64,000 nucleotides of DNA, from assembly GCA_938041505.1 (NCBI GenBank), contig CALITC010000004.1, forward strand, positions 1 to 64,000. Direction: 5' to 3'. Numbering within the stretch: the first letter of the stretch is position 1; each line of letters starts with the position of its first letter. This document shows, piece after piece, positions 4,851 through 56,865 of this stretch. Position numbers and translations under genes: made by a program. Source of the DNA: an uncultured Patescibacteria group bacterium. GTDB taxonomy: Bacteria; Patescibacteriota; JACMRA01. The notes under the pieces are model-generated. The model had not been told where the DNA came from, did not search any database, and saw only the letters and a program-made list of their open reading frames with translations.

Positions 4851-5555
4851 TTATTCATAAGATTGCTGCATACACTTTTTACATACATAACTTCCTAGCA
4901 AAGTAGCTACAAAGAGAATAAAAGCAATCACAAAAACAGACTTTCCTAGTATCACACTCGACCCCAAAAGCACAACGGTAATCATCCCAGGAAAGGTTCC
5001 CCAGAATGTTCCCCAGAAATAAGCTCTCCAAGGAATTTTGGTAAGACCAAACCCATAACTTACTAAGTCAAAAGGAACCCAAAGTAAACGAGATATAAAT
5101 ACATAAAAAAAACTTGCTTTTCCTAGTTTTTTCGAAGTTTGTTTTAGAAGAGGAATCTTGGACAAAGGGTCGCTATCACCTGCGAAGTATCGAGCAACCA
5201 AAAATGAGCTATTGGCAGCCATATTCTCACCGAATATCGTAATTAACATACCATAAAAAGGGCCAAATACAGCACCAGTTATAATTGTAAGGATGGAGGC
5301 TGGTAAAAACACAAAAGGCCGAAGCACATATATGACCAAAATAATAAGCGGCCCCAGCACAGCCTTACTCTTCAAAAAATCCTGTACTCGAAGCACATAG
5401 CTTTCCAGAACAACTCGCAACGCTTCCAAGGCACCCATCTCAGGGCGCTGTTCAATTGCCAAACTAGTCTGATATAAAATATAAACAATAAAAGCTGTAA
5501 TTGTAAATCCCCAGAGCATTAAAAGCCCTTTTTTGAAGTGCGATAACTCTAGCAT
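4851..5555 (-). CDS. TVP38/TMEM64 (SNARE-associated, DedA-like) membrane protein
   Basis: Polytopic membrane protein of the VTT/DedA superfamily, whose members are thought to act in lipid scrambling or small-solute handling. 234 aa with about five or six hydrophobic segments. The central stretch ITGAVFGPFYGMLITIFGE followed by NSSFLVARYF is the family signature, and the later SRLLWVPFDLVSYGFGLTKI segment is typical too. The start is ATG 5555; the promoter read on this strand puts the -10 box only 9 nt upstream. It is divergent from the flavin oxidoreductase at 5652. TVP38 proteins are often linked to MerA/Lpd-like oxidoreductases, so the pair may work together, though this is inference. Confidence 0.88.
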   Translation of the reverse strand: MLELSHFKKGLLMLWGFTITAFIVYILYQTSLAIEQRPEMGALEALRVVLESYVLRVQDFLKSKAVLGPLIILVIYVLRPFVFLPASILTIITGAVFGPFYGMLITIFGENMAANSSFLVARYFAGDSDPLSKIPLLKQTSKKLGKASFFYVFISRLLWVPFDLVSYGFGLTKIPWRAYFWGTFWGTFPGMITVVLLGSSVILGKSVFVIAFILFVATLLGSYVCKKCMQQSYE

Positions 5556-5564
5556 TAATCATAA

Positions 5565-5593
5565 TTAATAGATAAAAATATTAGAACTGTCAA
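5565..5593 (-). promoter_or_regulatory. Promoter of the TVP38 gene
   Basis: On the minus strand: TTGACA (5593-5588), 17-nt spacer, TATTAA (5570-5565). Nine nucleotides separate the -10 box from the ATG, so the 5' leader should be only a few nucleotides or absent. Confidence 0.65.
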
Positions 5594-5595
5594 CC

Positions 5596-5612
5596 ATACC
5601 CCCCTATGGTAT
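5596..5612. promoter_or_regulatory. Candidate CsoR/CstR-type operator
   Basis: ATACCCCCCTATGGTAT: an AT-flanked C tract with inverted ends ATACC and GGTAT. It ends at the first T of the -35 box of the 5652 gene and lies 3 nt from the -35 box of the divergent TVP38 gene. It matches the general form of operators of the CsoR family (copper-sensing CsoR, persulfide-sensing CstR). A near copy (56425) precedes thioredoxin at the same position relative to -35. No CsoR-family gene is in the window. Confidence 0.5.
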
Positions 5613-5640
5613 TGACAAAAGCAAAGTTATCGTTTAATTT
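5612..5640 (+). promoter_or_regulatory. Promoter of the disulfide oxidoreductase gene
   Basis: TTGACA (5612-5617), 17 nt, TAATTT (5635-5640). The ATG at 5652 is 11 nt beyond, giving a very short leader. The CsoR/CstR-like site abuts the -35 box. Confidence 0.6.
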
Positions 5641-5651
5641 TAGATTAATTT

Positions 5652-7031
5652 ATGTCTAAACTTATAGTAATTGGTTCAGGTTCAGGAGGGCTTACAGCAG
5701 CAATCGGGTTGGCAAAAGTAGGATACAACGTCACCATCATAGAAAAAGAACACATTGGAGGTGATTGCACTAACTTTGGATGCATTCCAAGTAAGACTCT
5801 TCTTCAAGAAGCAAAAAGACTTCATCAAGCATATAAAACTTTGAACAAAAAGCATGATAACGAATATTCAAAGTTAGCTGAAGGCGTTCTTCAAAGAACC
5901 AGGGATGTTGTTGGCTCATTCCAAGCTCACGAATCAGAAGAATGGTTGCAAGAAAATAACGTCTCTCTCGTAAGAGGGGAGGCTAAATTCACAAGCCCCA
6001 AATCAATACATGTAGGAGGTATTGATCTTAATTTTGATAAATGTGTCATTGCCACTGGCTCCAGGGCCGCCACACCTCCCCTCAAAGGCTTAGGAGACAC
6101 ACCGTATCTGACCAACAAAAATATATTTGATCTCAAAAAAGTGCCTAAGCGATTGGCTATAATTGGTAACGGTGTGATTGCAGTTGAGATGGGTGAAGCT
6201 TTTGCAATGCTTGGTTCTAAAGTAACCATTATAGGGAGAAGACAAACCATTCTCAATAGCTCTGACCCAGAAATGAAAGCCCGCCTTATGCACAAACTTG
6301 AAGATCTTGGCATTAAATTTTTGGGAGCAAGTACAAAAGAAGTGTCATATAAGAAGGGAATTTTCCATTTGAAAGGTGAGGAGTTGGATATTGAAGCTGA
6401 GCAACTATTAGTAGCAACCGGCCGCACACCCAATATAGACCTAGATCTAAAAAAGGCGAAGGTGGAATACACAGCCAAAGGTATTAATGCCAAAGCCACC
6501 ACTCAAACAAGCAACCGCAATATCTACGCTATAGGAGACTGCGTAAGCGGAGTTCCAAAATTCACCCACTTTGCATATCACATGGGGAAAGCAGTTAATA
6601 CTAATTTAATCATTCAAAAATACACAAAACTTCCTATACATATTGCTAAAATCAAGCCTTCTTACAACCCTGCGGTAATCTACACCTCCACAGAGCTAGC
6701 AGAAGCAGGTATGAGTGAAAATGAAGCCAAAAAAACCTACCACACTGTCAAAACATTCACTTTGGATTTCAAATCACTAGACCGTGCCATAACCAATAAC
6801 GAAGAAGGTGCGATAAAAATAATAACCGCTGGCTTTATGGGACGAGTAGTCGGAGTTTCAATCTACGCGGCACGAGCTGGAGAAATACTCCCTGAATTCC
6901 AAACCATGATAGTTGAAAAAAGAAACATGCTTTATTTTAATAAACTAATAAGAGCCTATCCAACATACACCGCAAACCTCGACGGATTCTTCAAACAGTG
7001 GTTATTCTCATTAGTCTCAAAAAAGAAATAG
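5652..7031 (+). CDS. FAD-dependent pyridine nucleotide-disulfide oxidoreductase (MerA/Lpd-like)
   Basis: Flavoprotein that moves electrons from NAD(P)H through a redox disulfide to a small substrate. Seen: N-terminal FAD-binding GSGSGGLTAAIGLA; the redox-active pair in GGDCTNFGCIPSK (CxxxxC); NAD(P)-binding GNGVIAVEMGEAF near residue 172; second FAD motif YAIGDCV near 295; C-terminal dimerisation domain. The usual catalytic His of dihydrolipoamide dehydrogenase (AHPT) is Tyr here (AYPTY), as in MerA-like branches, so lipoamide is probably not the substrate. There is no N-terminal metal-binding domain. Divergent from TVP38, with a candidate CsoR/CstR-type operator at its promoter, which points to metal, sulfur or thiol stress. 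The substrate cannot be read from sequence. Confidence 0.9.
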   Translation: MSKLIVIGSGSGGLTAAIGLAKVGYNVTIIEKEHIGGDCTNFGCIPSKTLLQEAKRLHQAYKTLNKKHDNEYSKLAEGVLQRTRDVVGSFQAHESEEWLQENNVSLVRGEAKFTSPKSIHVGGIDLNFDKCVIATGSRAATPPLKGLGDTPYLTNKNIFDLKKVPKRLAIIGNGVIAVEMGEAFAMLGSKVTIIGRRQTILNSSDPEMKARLMHKLEDLGIKFLGASTKEVSYKKGIFHLKGEELDIEAEQLLVATGRTPNIDLDLKKAKVEYTAKGINAKATTQTSNRNIYAIGDCVSGVPKFTHFAYHMGKAVNTNLIIQKYTKLPIHIAKIKPSYNPAVIYTSTELAEAGMSENEAKKTYHTVKTFTLDFKSLDRAITNNEEGAIKIITAGFMGRVVGVSIYAARAGEILPEFQTMIVEKRNMLYFNKLIRAYPTYTANLDGFFKQWLFSLVSKKK

Positions 7032-7075: not shown

Positions 7076-7801
7076 TTATTTTTTCTTTGCTTTTGTACTC
7101 ACTTTTTTGATGGTTTTTTTGGATGCTGGTTTTTTGGCTGGTACCTTCTTTTTTGTTATCTTCTTCTTGACTTCTTTTGGTGTCTCGTCGATCTTAGCAG
7201 CTCCGCTTGCTGCGTTTTGATTAGCTTTTGAACCATTCCGAAAAGCAAAGAAAAGTGCCAGTGCAGATAAGCCTAAAGCCAACCATCCAACAAAGCCTGG
7301 AAACCCACTTTCATTATTATTCTCAGCGTTGACGATGTCACTTACTTGAGTTTTGATCGGATCTAAAATCTCCACATCATCACCTTCTACGTCCACACCA
7401 TAAGAAAGCACATAATTATCCAGATAATTCTGCTCTACTTCCCACTCAATAGTTCCAGCTCCATCAGGAACCTCAGCTAAAAATTGAAATTCTTCTGCCT
7501 GACCACTTGGAATAAAAGTTCTACCACTCCATTCAATCGATGATACGTTGCCTTCATCATCTTGCTCAGATACATTATTCCAGCGATCTTTTGCAAAAGT
7601 ACGCACATTAGTCACTCCTTGAGGAATATAAATTTTAATACCGTTCGTTGGCTGCTCACGCTCACTTACAACTTGTACGGAAAAAAGCTGCTTTGCACCT
7701 AATTCAACCACTTCAGGCTCTATGGAAACTTCTGCAGAAGCCGTGACAAAACTTGATGCTAAAAGCAGCATGCTAGTAAAAATTATTAAAAAGTGTTTCA
7801 T
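7076..7801 (-). CDS. YcnI-like (DUF1775) secreted membrane-anchored protein
   Basis: Signal peptide (FLIIFTSMLLLASSFVTASA), a beta-rich domain, a late TM segment (GWLALGLSALALFFAF) and a lysine-rich C-terminal tail. The domain resembles YcnI/DUF1775: an E.VELG..QLFSV opening, an IPQGVTNVRTF strand and a W..G..FIPSGQAEEFQF pattern. YcnI proteins bind copper with an N-terminal His (AHVTV) after signal cleavage; here the corresponding stretch is AEVSI, so that ligand is missing and copper binding is doubtful. The track's start at 7810 is a TTG inside the -10 box; I chose the ATG at 7801, 8 nt downstream of the -10 box. It converges with the oxidoreductase. The basic tail makes a cytoplasmic C terminus likely. 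Confidence 0.72.
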   Translation of the reverse strand: MKHFLIIFTSMLLLASSFVTASAEVSIEPEVVELGAKQLFSVQVVSEREQPTNGIKIYIPQGVTNVRTFAKDRWNNVSEQDDEGNVSSIEWSGRTFIPSGQAEEFQFLAEVPDGAGTIEWEVEQNYLDNYVLSYGVDVEGDDVEILDPIKTQVSDIVNAENNNESGFPGFVGWLALGLSALALFFAFRNGSKANQNAASGAAKIDETPKEVKKKITKKKVPAKKPASKKTIKKVSTKAKKK

Positions 7802-7809
7802 ATGATACA

Positions 7810-7838
7810 ATCATATACCTCACACAAATACTAGTCAA
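7810..7838 (-). promoter_or_regulatory. Promoter of the YcnI-like gene
   Basis: Minus strand TTGACT (7838-7833), 17 nt, TATGAT (7815-7810), then 8 nt to the ATG at 7801. Leaderless or nearly so. Confidence 0.65.
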
Positions 7839-50877: not shown

Positions 50878-51384
50878 TTAGTACTGATTCTGGGATTGGT
50901 TTTGTCCTTGGAACTGCTTTCCATCACCAAAGTTAGCCTGGCTTTGTCCTGCTCCTTGGAATTGAGAATTATTGAATCCTCCTTGGTTTTGGTTTTGTCC
51001 TTGAACTTGCTCCTGACTTCCATGCCAACTTGCTTGGATTTGAGTCTGGCCTGCGTGCTGTCCTTGACTATTACCAGCTCCATATTGATTCTGATTCTGC
51101 TCTTGAGTCTCAAACTGGTCTCCATTACCAACATTAAATTGGCTTTGTCCTGCACCTTGTGTCTGAGAATTCCAGTAACCAGTTTGGTTTTGGTTTTGAG
51201 AATTACCTTGACCTTGGAATCCATTTCCTAGCTGGAACTGTTCTTGTCCTGCTCCTTGAAATTGAGAATTATTAGATCCTGGATAGTGCCATGCATTCGT
51301 TGATAGAGATGCAAAAGCTAAGAAACCAAGAGCTGCTAATCCAGCAACTGCAAAGCTTGTAGAAACGAGTGTTTTGTTATTCAT
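50878..51384 (-). CDS. Secreted glutamine-rich four-repeat protein
   Basis: 168 aa. Signal peptide (FAVAGLAALGFLAFASLSTNA), then four imperfect repeats of about 33-35 residues, consensus G(Y/F).NSQ.QGAGQ.Q...G.G.QFQ.Q.QNQNQ. Gln, Asn and Gly make up most of it; charged residues are few. The composition and spacing resemble amyloid-forming curlin-like repeats (S-x5-Q-x-G..N..Q) but are not a clear match. It could be a secreted fibre or matrix protein. The leader is about 80 nt long with a CCATTCT..AGAATGG hairpin (51423-51455). Divergent from a second Gln-rich protein at 51577. Confidence 0.8.
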   Translation of the reverse strand: MNNKTLVSTSFAVAGLAALGFLAFASLSTNAWHYPGSNNSQFQGAGQEQFQLGNGFQGQGNSQNQNQTGYWNSQTQGAGQSQFNVGNGDQFETQEQNQNQYGAGNSQGQHAGQTQIQASWHGSQEQVQGQNQNQGGFNNSQFQGAGQSQANFGDGKQFQGQNQSQNQY

Positions 51385-51576: not shown

Positions 51577-52074
51577 ATGACTAAATCTTCACATTTTATA
51601 TTTAATACTACGTTGTTTTTTGTAAGTACACTATCTTTAGTGTTTTTGTCAGCCCTATCAATAAGTGGGCAAGCCTACGACCAAAATCAAAATATCTACC
51701 AAGATCAATTTCAGACTGGTGACTGCAATCAAAAACAAATTCAGAAACAATTTCAACGCCAAAACGGTAACAGATATTATAACGTCGATCTTAATATCAA
51801 TATAGAGTACCAACACCAATTTGGCTCAGATGAATGCTACCAAGCTCAATATCAGATCGGTGATCAAGCCTCAGAAGATCAGTACCAAATCCAAGACCAA
51901 GGTAACGAACAGCAAGGATCAGGGTATCAATCTTCGTGGCAATACCAACTCCAAGCTCAAACACCATGGAACAATATTCAAAGGCAACACCAAGACCAGA
52001 ATCAAAAAGGATATTGGAATTCAATATTCCAAAACCAGTTCCAGAATCAACTCCAAAATCAAAACGTAACCTAA
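51577..52074 (+). CDS. Secreted glutamine-rich protein, companion of the 50878 product
   Basis: 165 aa. Signal peptide (LFFVSTLSLVFLSALSISGQA) then a Gln/Asn/Tyr-rich mature part with two Cys (GDCNQKQ, DECYQAQ). Segments such as QDQFQTGDCNQKQIQKQFQ and QFQNQLQNQNV are low complexity, but the ordered 34-residue repeat of the neighbour is missing. Final residues ...QNQNVT. Divergent from the 50878 gene with ~190 nt between them; promoter TTGACA-17-TTATGC. The shared secretion signal, composition and divergent layout suggest joint function, for example a major and a minor fibre subunit, which is inference. Confidence 0.75.
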   Translation: MTKSSHFIFNTTLFFVSTLSLVFLSALSISGQAYDQNQNIYQDQFQTGDCNQKQIQKQFQRQNGNRYYNVDLNINIEYQHQFGSDECYQAQYQIGDQASEDQYQIQDQGNEQQGSGYQSSWQYQLQAQTPWNNIQRQHQDQNQKGYWNSIFQNQFQNQLQNQNVT

Positions 52075-56424: not shown

Positions 56425-56440
56425 ATACCCCCTAGGGTAT
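56425..56440. promoter_or_regulatory. Candidate CsoR/CstR-type operator at trxA
   Basis: ATACCCCCTAGGGTAT, a near-perfect inverted repeat that ends 7 nt before the -35 box of thioredoxin. Same form and position as the site at 5596-5612. Confidence 0.55.
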
Positions 56441-56447
56441 TTTTCTA

Positions 56448-56476
56448 TTGACCAATTCATCCACAAAAACTATACT
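56448..56476 (+). promoter_or_regulatory. Promoter of the thioredoxin gene
   Basis: TTGACC (56448-56453), 17 nt, TATACT (56471-56476), 23 nt before ATG. Confidence 0.7.
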
Positions 56477-56499: not shown

Positions 56500-56865
56500 A
56501 TGTCTCAATCAGAAAACATAACAGCAATCAATAAGGAATCATTCGAAGAAATCAAAAACAAAGAGGGTATCTACCTAATTGACTTCTGGGCAGAATGGTG
56601 CGGACCTTGCAAAACAATGAACCCAATTCTTGAAAACTTATCAGAGCAAATGCCTGAGATCAAATTCTTAAGTGTTAACGTCGATGAAAATCAAGAGATG
56701 AGCCAAGCATTTGGCATTAGCTCAATCCCAACCTTCTACATTATTAAAATGAAAGGTGATGGTAGCTTTGATATTAACGAAGACACTATTACAGTAATGC
56801 GAGGCTCGGCACCTGCTCTTGACTTCAAGATGGCTTTGGAGAAAGCTGTAGAAGAAAGTAAGTAA
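56500..56865 (+). CDS. trxA: Thioredoxin
   Basis: 121 aa. LIDFWAEWCGPCKTMNPIL contains the active-site WCGPCK; SIPTFYII carries the cis-Pro; LSVNVDEN is the second core strand. No signal peptide, so it is cytoplasmic. The insert between the last strands (KMKGDGSFDINEDTITVMRG) is longer than in E. coli thioredoxin. It is preceded by a CsoR/CstR-like operator, so it probably answers to copper, persulfide or thiol stress together with the 5652 oxidoreductase. The latter might even be the reductase for it, which is speculation. A small two-TM protein follows after 14 nt. Confidence 0.95.
   Translation: MSQSENITAINKESFEEIKNKEGIYLIDFWAEWCGPCKTMNPILENLSEQMPEIKFLSVNVDENQEMSQAFGISSIPTFYIIKMKGDGSFDINEDTITVMRGSAPALDFKMALEKAVEESK

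Follow-up and report, generated by a model that had tools for sequence, protein, structure and literature searches.

We report that a palindrome at positions 5596-5612 of the DNA studied here is probably the operator of a CstR-type repressor of the CsoR family (DUF156), which would sense thiols or reactive sulfur and control a dispersed thiol-redox regulon. The window, i.e. the whole 64-kb stretch that was analysed, belongs to a Patescibacteria draft genome of 1.12 Mb that is 69% complete (G000 below). Patescibacteria have tiny genomes, and little is known about how they sense stress. A search of the open-access literature turned up no paper that deals with CsoR-family regulation in this group. 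The CsoR/CstR family itself is already known, and the novelty would lie in a CstR-type member with a dispersed thiol-redox regulon in this phylum. The finding holds, and it is larger than a reading of the sequence alone could show. The genes and elements around the site are as follows.

4851-5555, minus strand: TVP38/DedA-type membrane protein with a VTT domain (Pfam PF09335, 74.5 bits against a cut-off of 33.9)
5565-5593, minus strand: predicted TVP38 promoter, TTGACA-17-TATTAA, with the -35 box at 5593-5588
5596-5612, no strand: candidate CsoR/CstR-type operator, ATACCCCCCTATGGTAT, 17 bp, 7-3-7 form with 2 mismatches
5612-5640, plus strand: predicted oxidoreductase promoter, TTGACA-17-TAATTT, with the -35 box TTGACA at 5612-5617
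5652-7031, plus strand: class I flavin disulfide reductase, MerA/lipoamide-dehydrogenase-like, with the active site GGDCTNFGCIPSK
7076-7810, minus strand: DUF1775 (YcnI-like) gene (Pfam E 5.6e-9)

The motif that an earlier note had picked out is real and lies exactly where it was placed, ATACCCCCCTATGGTAT being the sole match in the 64-kb window at up to three mismatches, where shuffled sequences lead one to expect 0.05. It matches the published type-2 CsoR consensus (PMC3902906), with the C- and G-tracts flanked by a TAC-N9-GTA dyad that spans 5597-5611. The site was described as abutting the -35 box of the oxidoreductase; it is indeed at that promoter, but it overlaps the first T of TTGACA, and the divergent TVP38 gene has its -35 box 2 bp away and not 3. 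The TVP38 and oxidoreductase promoters were absent from the output of a generic promoter scan on account of their weak -10 boxes. No Rfam element was found between 5000 and 6000 of the window.

The search was extended to the whole genome with the pattern ATACCCCN{3,6}GGTAT, which occurs at five places in G000 and at none in the reversed control, against an order-1 Markov expectation of about 0.15 per genome. One of these is the copy of the motif that the earlier note had reported upstream of trxA, and it was recovered there; three more lie outside the window, all on promoters, two of the three at redox or TVP38-family genes.

56425-56440, no strand: second candidate operator, ATACCCCCTAGGGTAT, 7-2-7 form with 1 mismatch, 60 bp before trxA
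56448-56476, plus strand: predicted trxA promoter, TTGACC-17-TATACT (generic scan match 10/12)
56500-56865, plus strand: trxA, thioredoxin (WCGPC)
Contig C26, outside the window: site at the promoter of an operon for a thioredoxin-fold protein and CcdA/DsbD
Contig C6, outside the window: site at the promoter of a second VTT/TVP38-family gene (VTT2)
Contig C2, outside the window: site at the promoter of NADP-glutamate dehydrogenase (gdhA)

All five sites are located on predicted promoters with a spacing of exactly 17 bp, and three of them have the 7-2-7 form. The gdhA and VTT2 sites fill the spacer between the -35 and -10 boxes, as a repressor would be expected to, and the CcdA site abuts TTGACA in a layout much like that of the window oxidoreductase. 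The trxA site, whose dyad has N8 between TAC and GTA, ends 7 bp upstream of the -35 box, which is a less obvious place for repression. It also has a short T run behind it and was flagged as terminator-like, an appearance shared by three looser G000 palindromes that we set aside (C3:605, C3:47220 and C8:33566). Nevertheless, it is highly improbable that the palindromes are transcription terminators or a product of chance. Two divergent units flank the trxA site, so no terminator is needed there, and the T run is absent from the window, gdhA, VTT2 and CcdA sites, all four of which are on promoters. Chance is countered by the genome-wide count and by the conserved position of the site in a second genus (G001, below). 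Wider searches added little: the loose pattern TACCN{5,9}GGTA was uninformative (86 places vs 57 in the control), searches allowing three mismatches returned mostly noise, and near-sites on contigs C19, C22, C24, C25, C13 and C9 of G000 had no convincing target.

The genome holds two proteins above the curated PF02583 cut-off. Both things on which the earlier note had staked its reading, a CsoR-family gene and further motif sites, were thus found.

Contig C13, 45.83-46.10 kb: L005, CsoR-family protein of 87 aa (PF02583, DUF156; 45.5 bits against a cut-off of 22.8)
Contig C22, L006:1489-1740: L006, second CsoR-family protein, above the PF02583 cut-off

The regulator is most likely L005 rather than its paralogue. 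At its sensor positions L005 carries Cys38 and Cys67, with the same spacing of 29 residues as in CstR and TTHA1953, and its residue at the place of the copper-sensor His is Gly63; its set is therefore C-G-C, with no metal-ligand His in helix 2. L006 has kept the His and lost both sensor Cys residues (S-H-S). A tree of 37 proteins grouped L005 with its orthologues from the family (clade 100/99), on the same side as Staphylococcus aureus CstR, for which we used what we take to be its sequence, and apart from the C-H-C sensors (split 96/94, with the limited resolution of 87 positions). L006 grouped with the C-H-C side.

The DNA-contact residues of L005 are unusual. At the conserved helix-2 Gln both L005 (Leu44) and its G001 orthologue have Leu, and the RLXR motif reads N-I-N-K, the first Arg being replaced by Asn. 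The corresponding Q81 of Streptomyces lividans CsoR is essential for binding, as Q81A abolished detectable binding (PMC3902906). However, the same Leu occurs in L041 of G055, a regulator from another family with a perfect operator 37 bp before it, so the Leu in L005 is not fatal to our reading. The assignment of L005 to the CsoR family comes from the profile match and not from the DNA-binding residues. As to the three-helix bundle of the CsoR fold, a low-confidence AlphaFold model of the G001 orthologue (pLDDT 68) had only CsoR, InrS, FrmR and CstR structures among its 20 best PDB matches (best E 0.04).

No operator was found before the L005 gene itself, whose neighbours encode SecY, CysS, a fasciclin/lectin protein, a Na/Ca exchanger, DUF427, a bactofilin-like protein, RecG-like and UvrB. 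Ten proteins in the 16 kb around L005 were scanned with Pfam, and none was a rhodanese, SQR or TauE. The bactofilin-like membrane protein has no Pfam match and follows the regulator gene in G000 (L005:1794-2846) as well as in G001 (L059:1203-2342), where a VIT1-family gene precedes the locus. The fasciclin and ricin-type lectin domain protein (L065:5439-6383) is encoded some 1.5 kb upstream of the G000 regulator.

To follow the sites beyond G000 we turned to genomes assigned to the same family by kinship placement, including G001, recorded as 'Candidatus Gracilibacteria' RU_4_5 and representing another genus, and G003, recorded as 'Paceibacterota' LF-bin-483. A single profile scan of genome contigs yielded the G001 and G003 regulators only. 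The oxidoreductase orthologue of G001 (57% identity) has an operator that abuts TTGACA and ends in TATTGACA, in the same layout as in the window. Operator-type sites are also found in G001 before a thioredoxin reductase gene (trxB) and a glutaredoxin-like gene (loci L186 and L183), the former abutting TTGACA-17-TATAAT and the latter lying over the start region, and a near-site stands immediately upstream of the regulator gene. Another G001 site, on C44, was discarded as it is located inside a gene. The trxA orthologue has a weak site in G001 (10/14), and no operator site was found at those of G002-G005.

In G003 the regulator gene and a fasciclin/DsbD-thioredoxin operon diverge from each other, with ATACCCCTAGGGGTTGACA in the gap; the synteny recurs in G004, where the site is weaker, and in both genomes the fasciclin gene is the divergent neighbour of the regulator. 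The regulators of G003 (L060:4087-4359) and G004 (L061:3904-4167) have lost both sensor Cys residues and gained one new Cys in helix 2 (RVCKD), a possible turnover of the sensing chemistry. G001, G003 and G004 have L005-clade regulators only, and sites at redox genes are strong in G001 and G003 and weak in G004. No strict site was found in G002, which has no regulator, or in G005, which has only an L006-like one; within the family strict sites are confined to genomes with an L005-clade regulator. This distribution bears on whether the sites are real operators bound by the Cys-less L006, or by an unrelated regulator. L006 too exceeds the PF02583 cut-off and keeps the DNA-contact Gln that is Leu in L005, but its type of regulator alone is accompanied by no strict site in G005, while redox-gene sites persist in the three genomes that have L005-clade regulators only, in G003 directly beside the regulator gene. 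We therefore consider such a binder unlikely and regard L005 as the candidate regulator in what follows.

Across the phylum, ATACCCCN{2,4}GGGTAT was present in 48 of 240 genomes, against five single matches in the control. We examined 59 distinct places outside the family of G000 for a csoR gene within 420 bp, and found one at 20 of 28 perfect and 5 of 10 imperfect 7-3-7 sites, but at only 1 of 20 sites of the 7-2-7 form. These counts point to the 7-3-7 palindrome as the csoR operator of the phylum, with the 7-2-7 form probably used in addition in the family of G000. The usual position of the palindrome, just upstream of csoR in other patescibacterial families, supports the original reading of the window site as a CsoR-type operator.

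In most sampled families the csoR genes preceded by the palindrome are of the C-H-C (copper) type, and at some places it precedes P-type ATPase genes. This could point to a copper regulon, in which a Cu(I)-sensing CsoR binds the sites and the genes serve copper tolerance, all the more as a DUF1775 (YcnI-like) gene lies nearby in the window. Yet neither G000 protein has the C-H-C set, which makes copper a poor fit, and no copper ATPase or chaperone is encoded in the five target units. A CstR-type thiol switch is a good fit. The YcnI-like gene, which was said to follow the oxidoreductase, is real, but it is on the opposite strand, convergent with the oxidoreductase and hence not co-transcribed with it, and has no site of its own; we rejected it as a member of the unit. 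The odds of a copper regulon are consequently slim, and of the 'small redox or metal regulon' proposed earlier the redox half is a better match than the metal half, as the candidate regulator has no copper-ligand His. We also entertain, tentatively and with less confidence than the CstR-type assignment, that in the family of G000 a repressor of the copper-sensor type was converted into a global regulator of thiol redox, such that the ancestral operator was kept and spread to dispersed redox genes, the shorter 7-2-7 form became tolerated and the sensor Cys pair was changed. G000 and G001 have kept C-G-C; G003 and G004 have lost both Cys residues, yet their regulators adjoin a DsbD-type operon with the operator, clear in G003 and weak in G004.

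With L005 as a CstR-type repressor, the following scheme can be proposed. In its reduced state the protein would sit as a tetramer on the C-tract/G-tract palindrome and block sigma-70 promoters that overlap or abut it, acting by repression rather than activation. Bound at 5596-5612 it would silence TVP38 together with the divergent flavin disulfide reductase gene; bound at the other sites it would silence trxA, the thioredoxin-fold/CcdA operon, the second TVP38-family gene and gdhA. Once Cys38 and Cys67 were oxidised, persulfidated or otherwise modified at their thiols, the repressor would come off the DNA, switching on enzymes that reduce disulfides or persulfides and supply reducing power. 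The oxidoreductase/TVP38 pair, trxA, CcdA and gdhA, along with trxB and the glutaredoxin-like gene of G001, are a thiol-reduction set.

L005 resembles CstR, the persulfide sensor of S. aureus, Streptococcus pneumoniae and Enterococcus faecalis, in its pair of Cys residues about 29 apart and its lack of a metal-ligand His, and by analogy a similar operator type and thiol chemistry as the signal may be expected. The two differ in their targets: S. aureus CstR controls one neighbouring operon encoding rhodaneses, persulfide dioxygenase, SQR and TauE (PMC5480029), while those in G000 are dispersed general thiol-redox genes, with no sulfur-transfer gene detected by Pfam within about 8 kb of L005. 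TTHA1953 of Thermus thermophilus is a CsoR-family repressor with Cys39/Cys68, also spaced by 29, and thiol-sensitive binding, whose targets are likewise dispersed, far from its own gene, and include the thioredoxin SoxW (PMC10318464); its operator (TACNNTACNNNNGTANNGTA) and its Sox regulon are different. The operator of S. lividans CsoR is alike, with the type-2 consensus ATATACCCCTNAGGGGTATAT and TAC-N9-GTA (PMC3902906), but that protein is a copper sensor with copZA targets, and it keeps Gln81 and RLXR, neither of which L005 has. Finally, in the HypR-MerA/RclA systems a thiol-switch repressor controls MerA-like flavin disulfide reductases that HOCl or HOSCN induces (PMC10715087); the type of enzyme is common to G000, the repressor family is not, and the window enzyme scored far under the RclA and HOSCN-reductase cut-offs.

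The window oxidoreductase has an intact CxxxxC centre and is nearest to MerA (318.9 of a cut-off of 454) and lipoamide dehydrogenase (304.1 of 408.8), but reaches the cut-off of none of the NCBIfam equivalog models listed. Its pairing with a TVP38 protein has precedent. DedA proteins of COG0398 are most often fused to the same domain pair as the flavin reductase (PMC10127716), and on a Metabacillus plasmid TVP38 and flavin reductase genes stand side by side, adjoining msrA and msrB. The analysis offers a concrete regulon in Patescibacteria with regulator, operators and promoters, predicted as set out above. It would tie a MerA-like flavin disulfide reductase and the TVP38/DedA proteins, which are poorly understood, to thioredoxin-based thiol homeostasis, and it suggests that a metal-sensor family may become a redox sensor with its operator kept.

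Two further observations concern other proteins of the window. YcnI binds copper through a His at the residue following its signal peptide; the YcnI-like protein at 7076-7810 has Glu after its probable signal peptide, so copper binding is doubtful. At 50878-51384 (minus strand) and 51577-52074 (plus strand) there are neighbouring secreted proteins that consist almost wholly of Gln/Asn-rich repeats.
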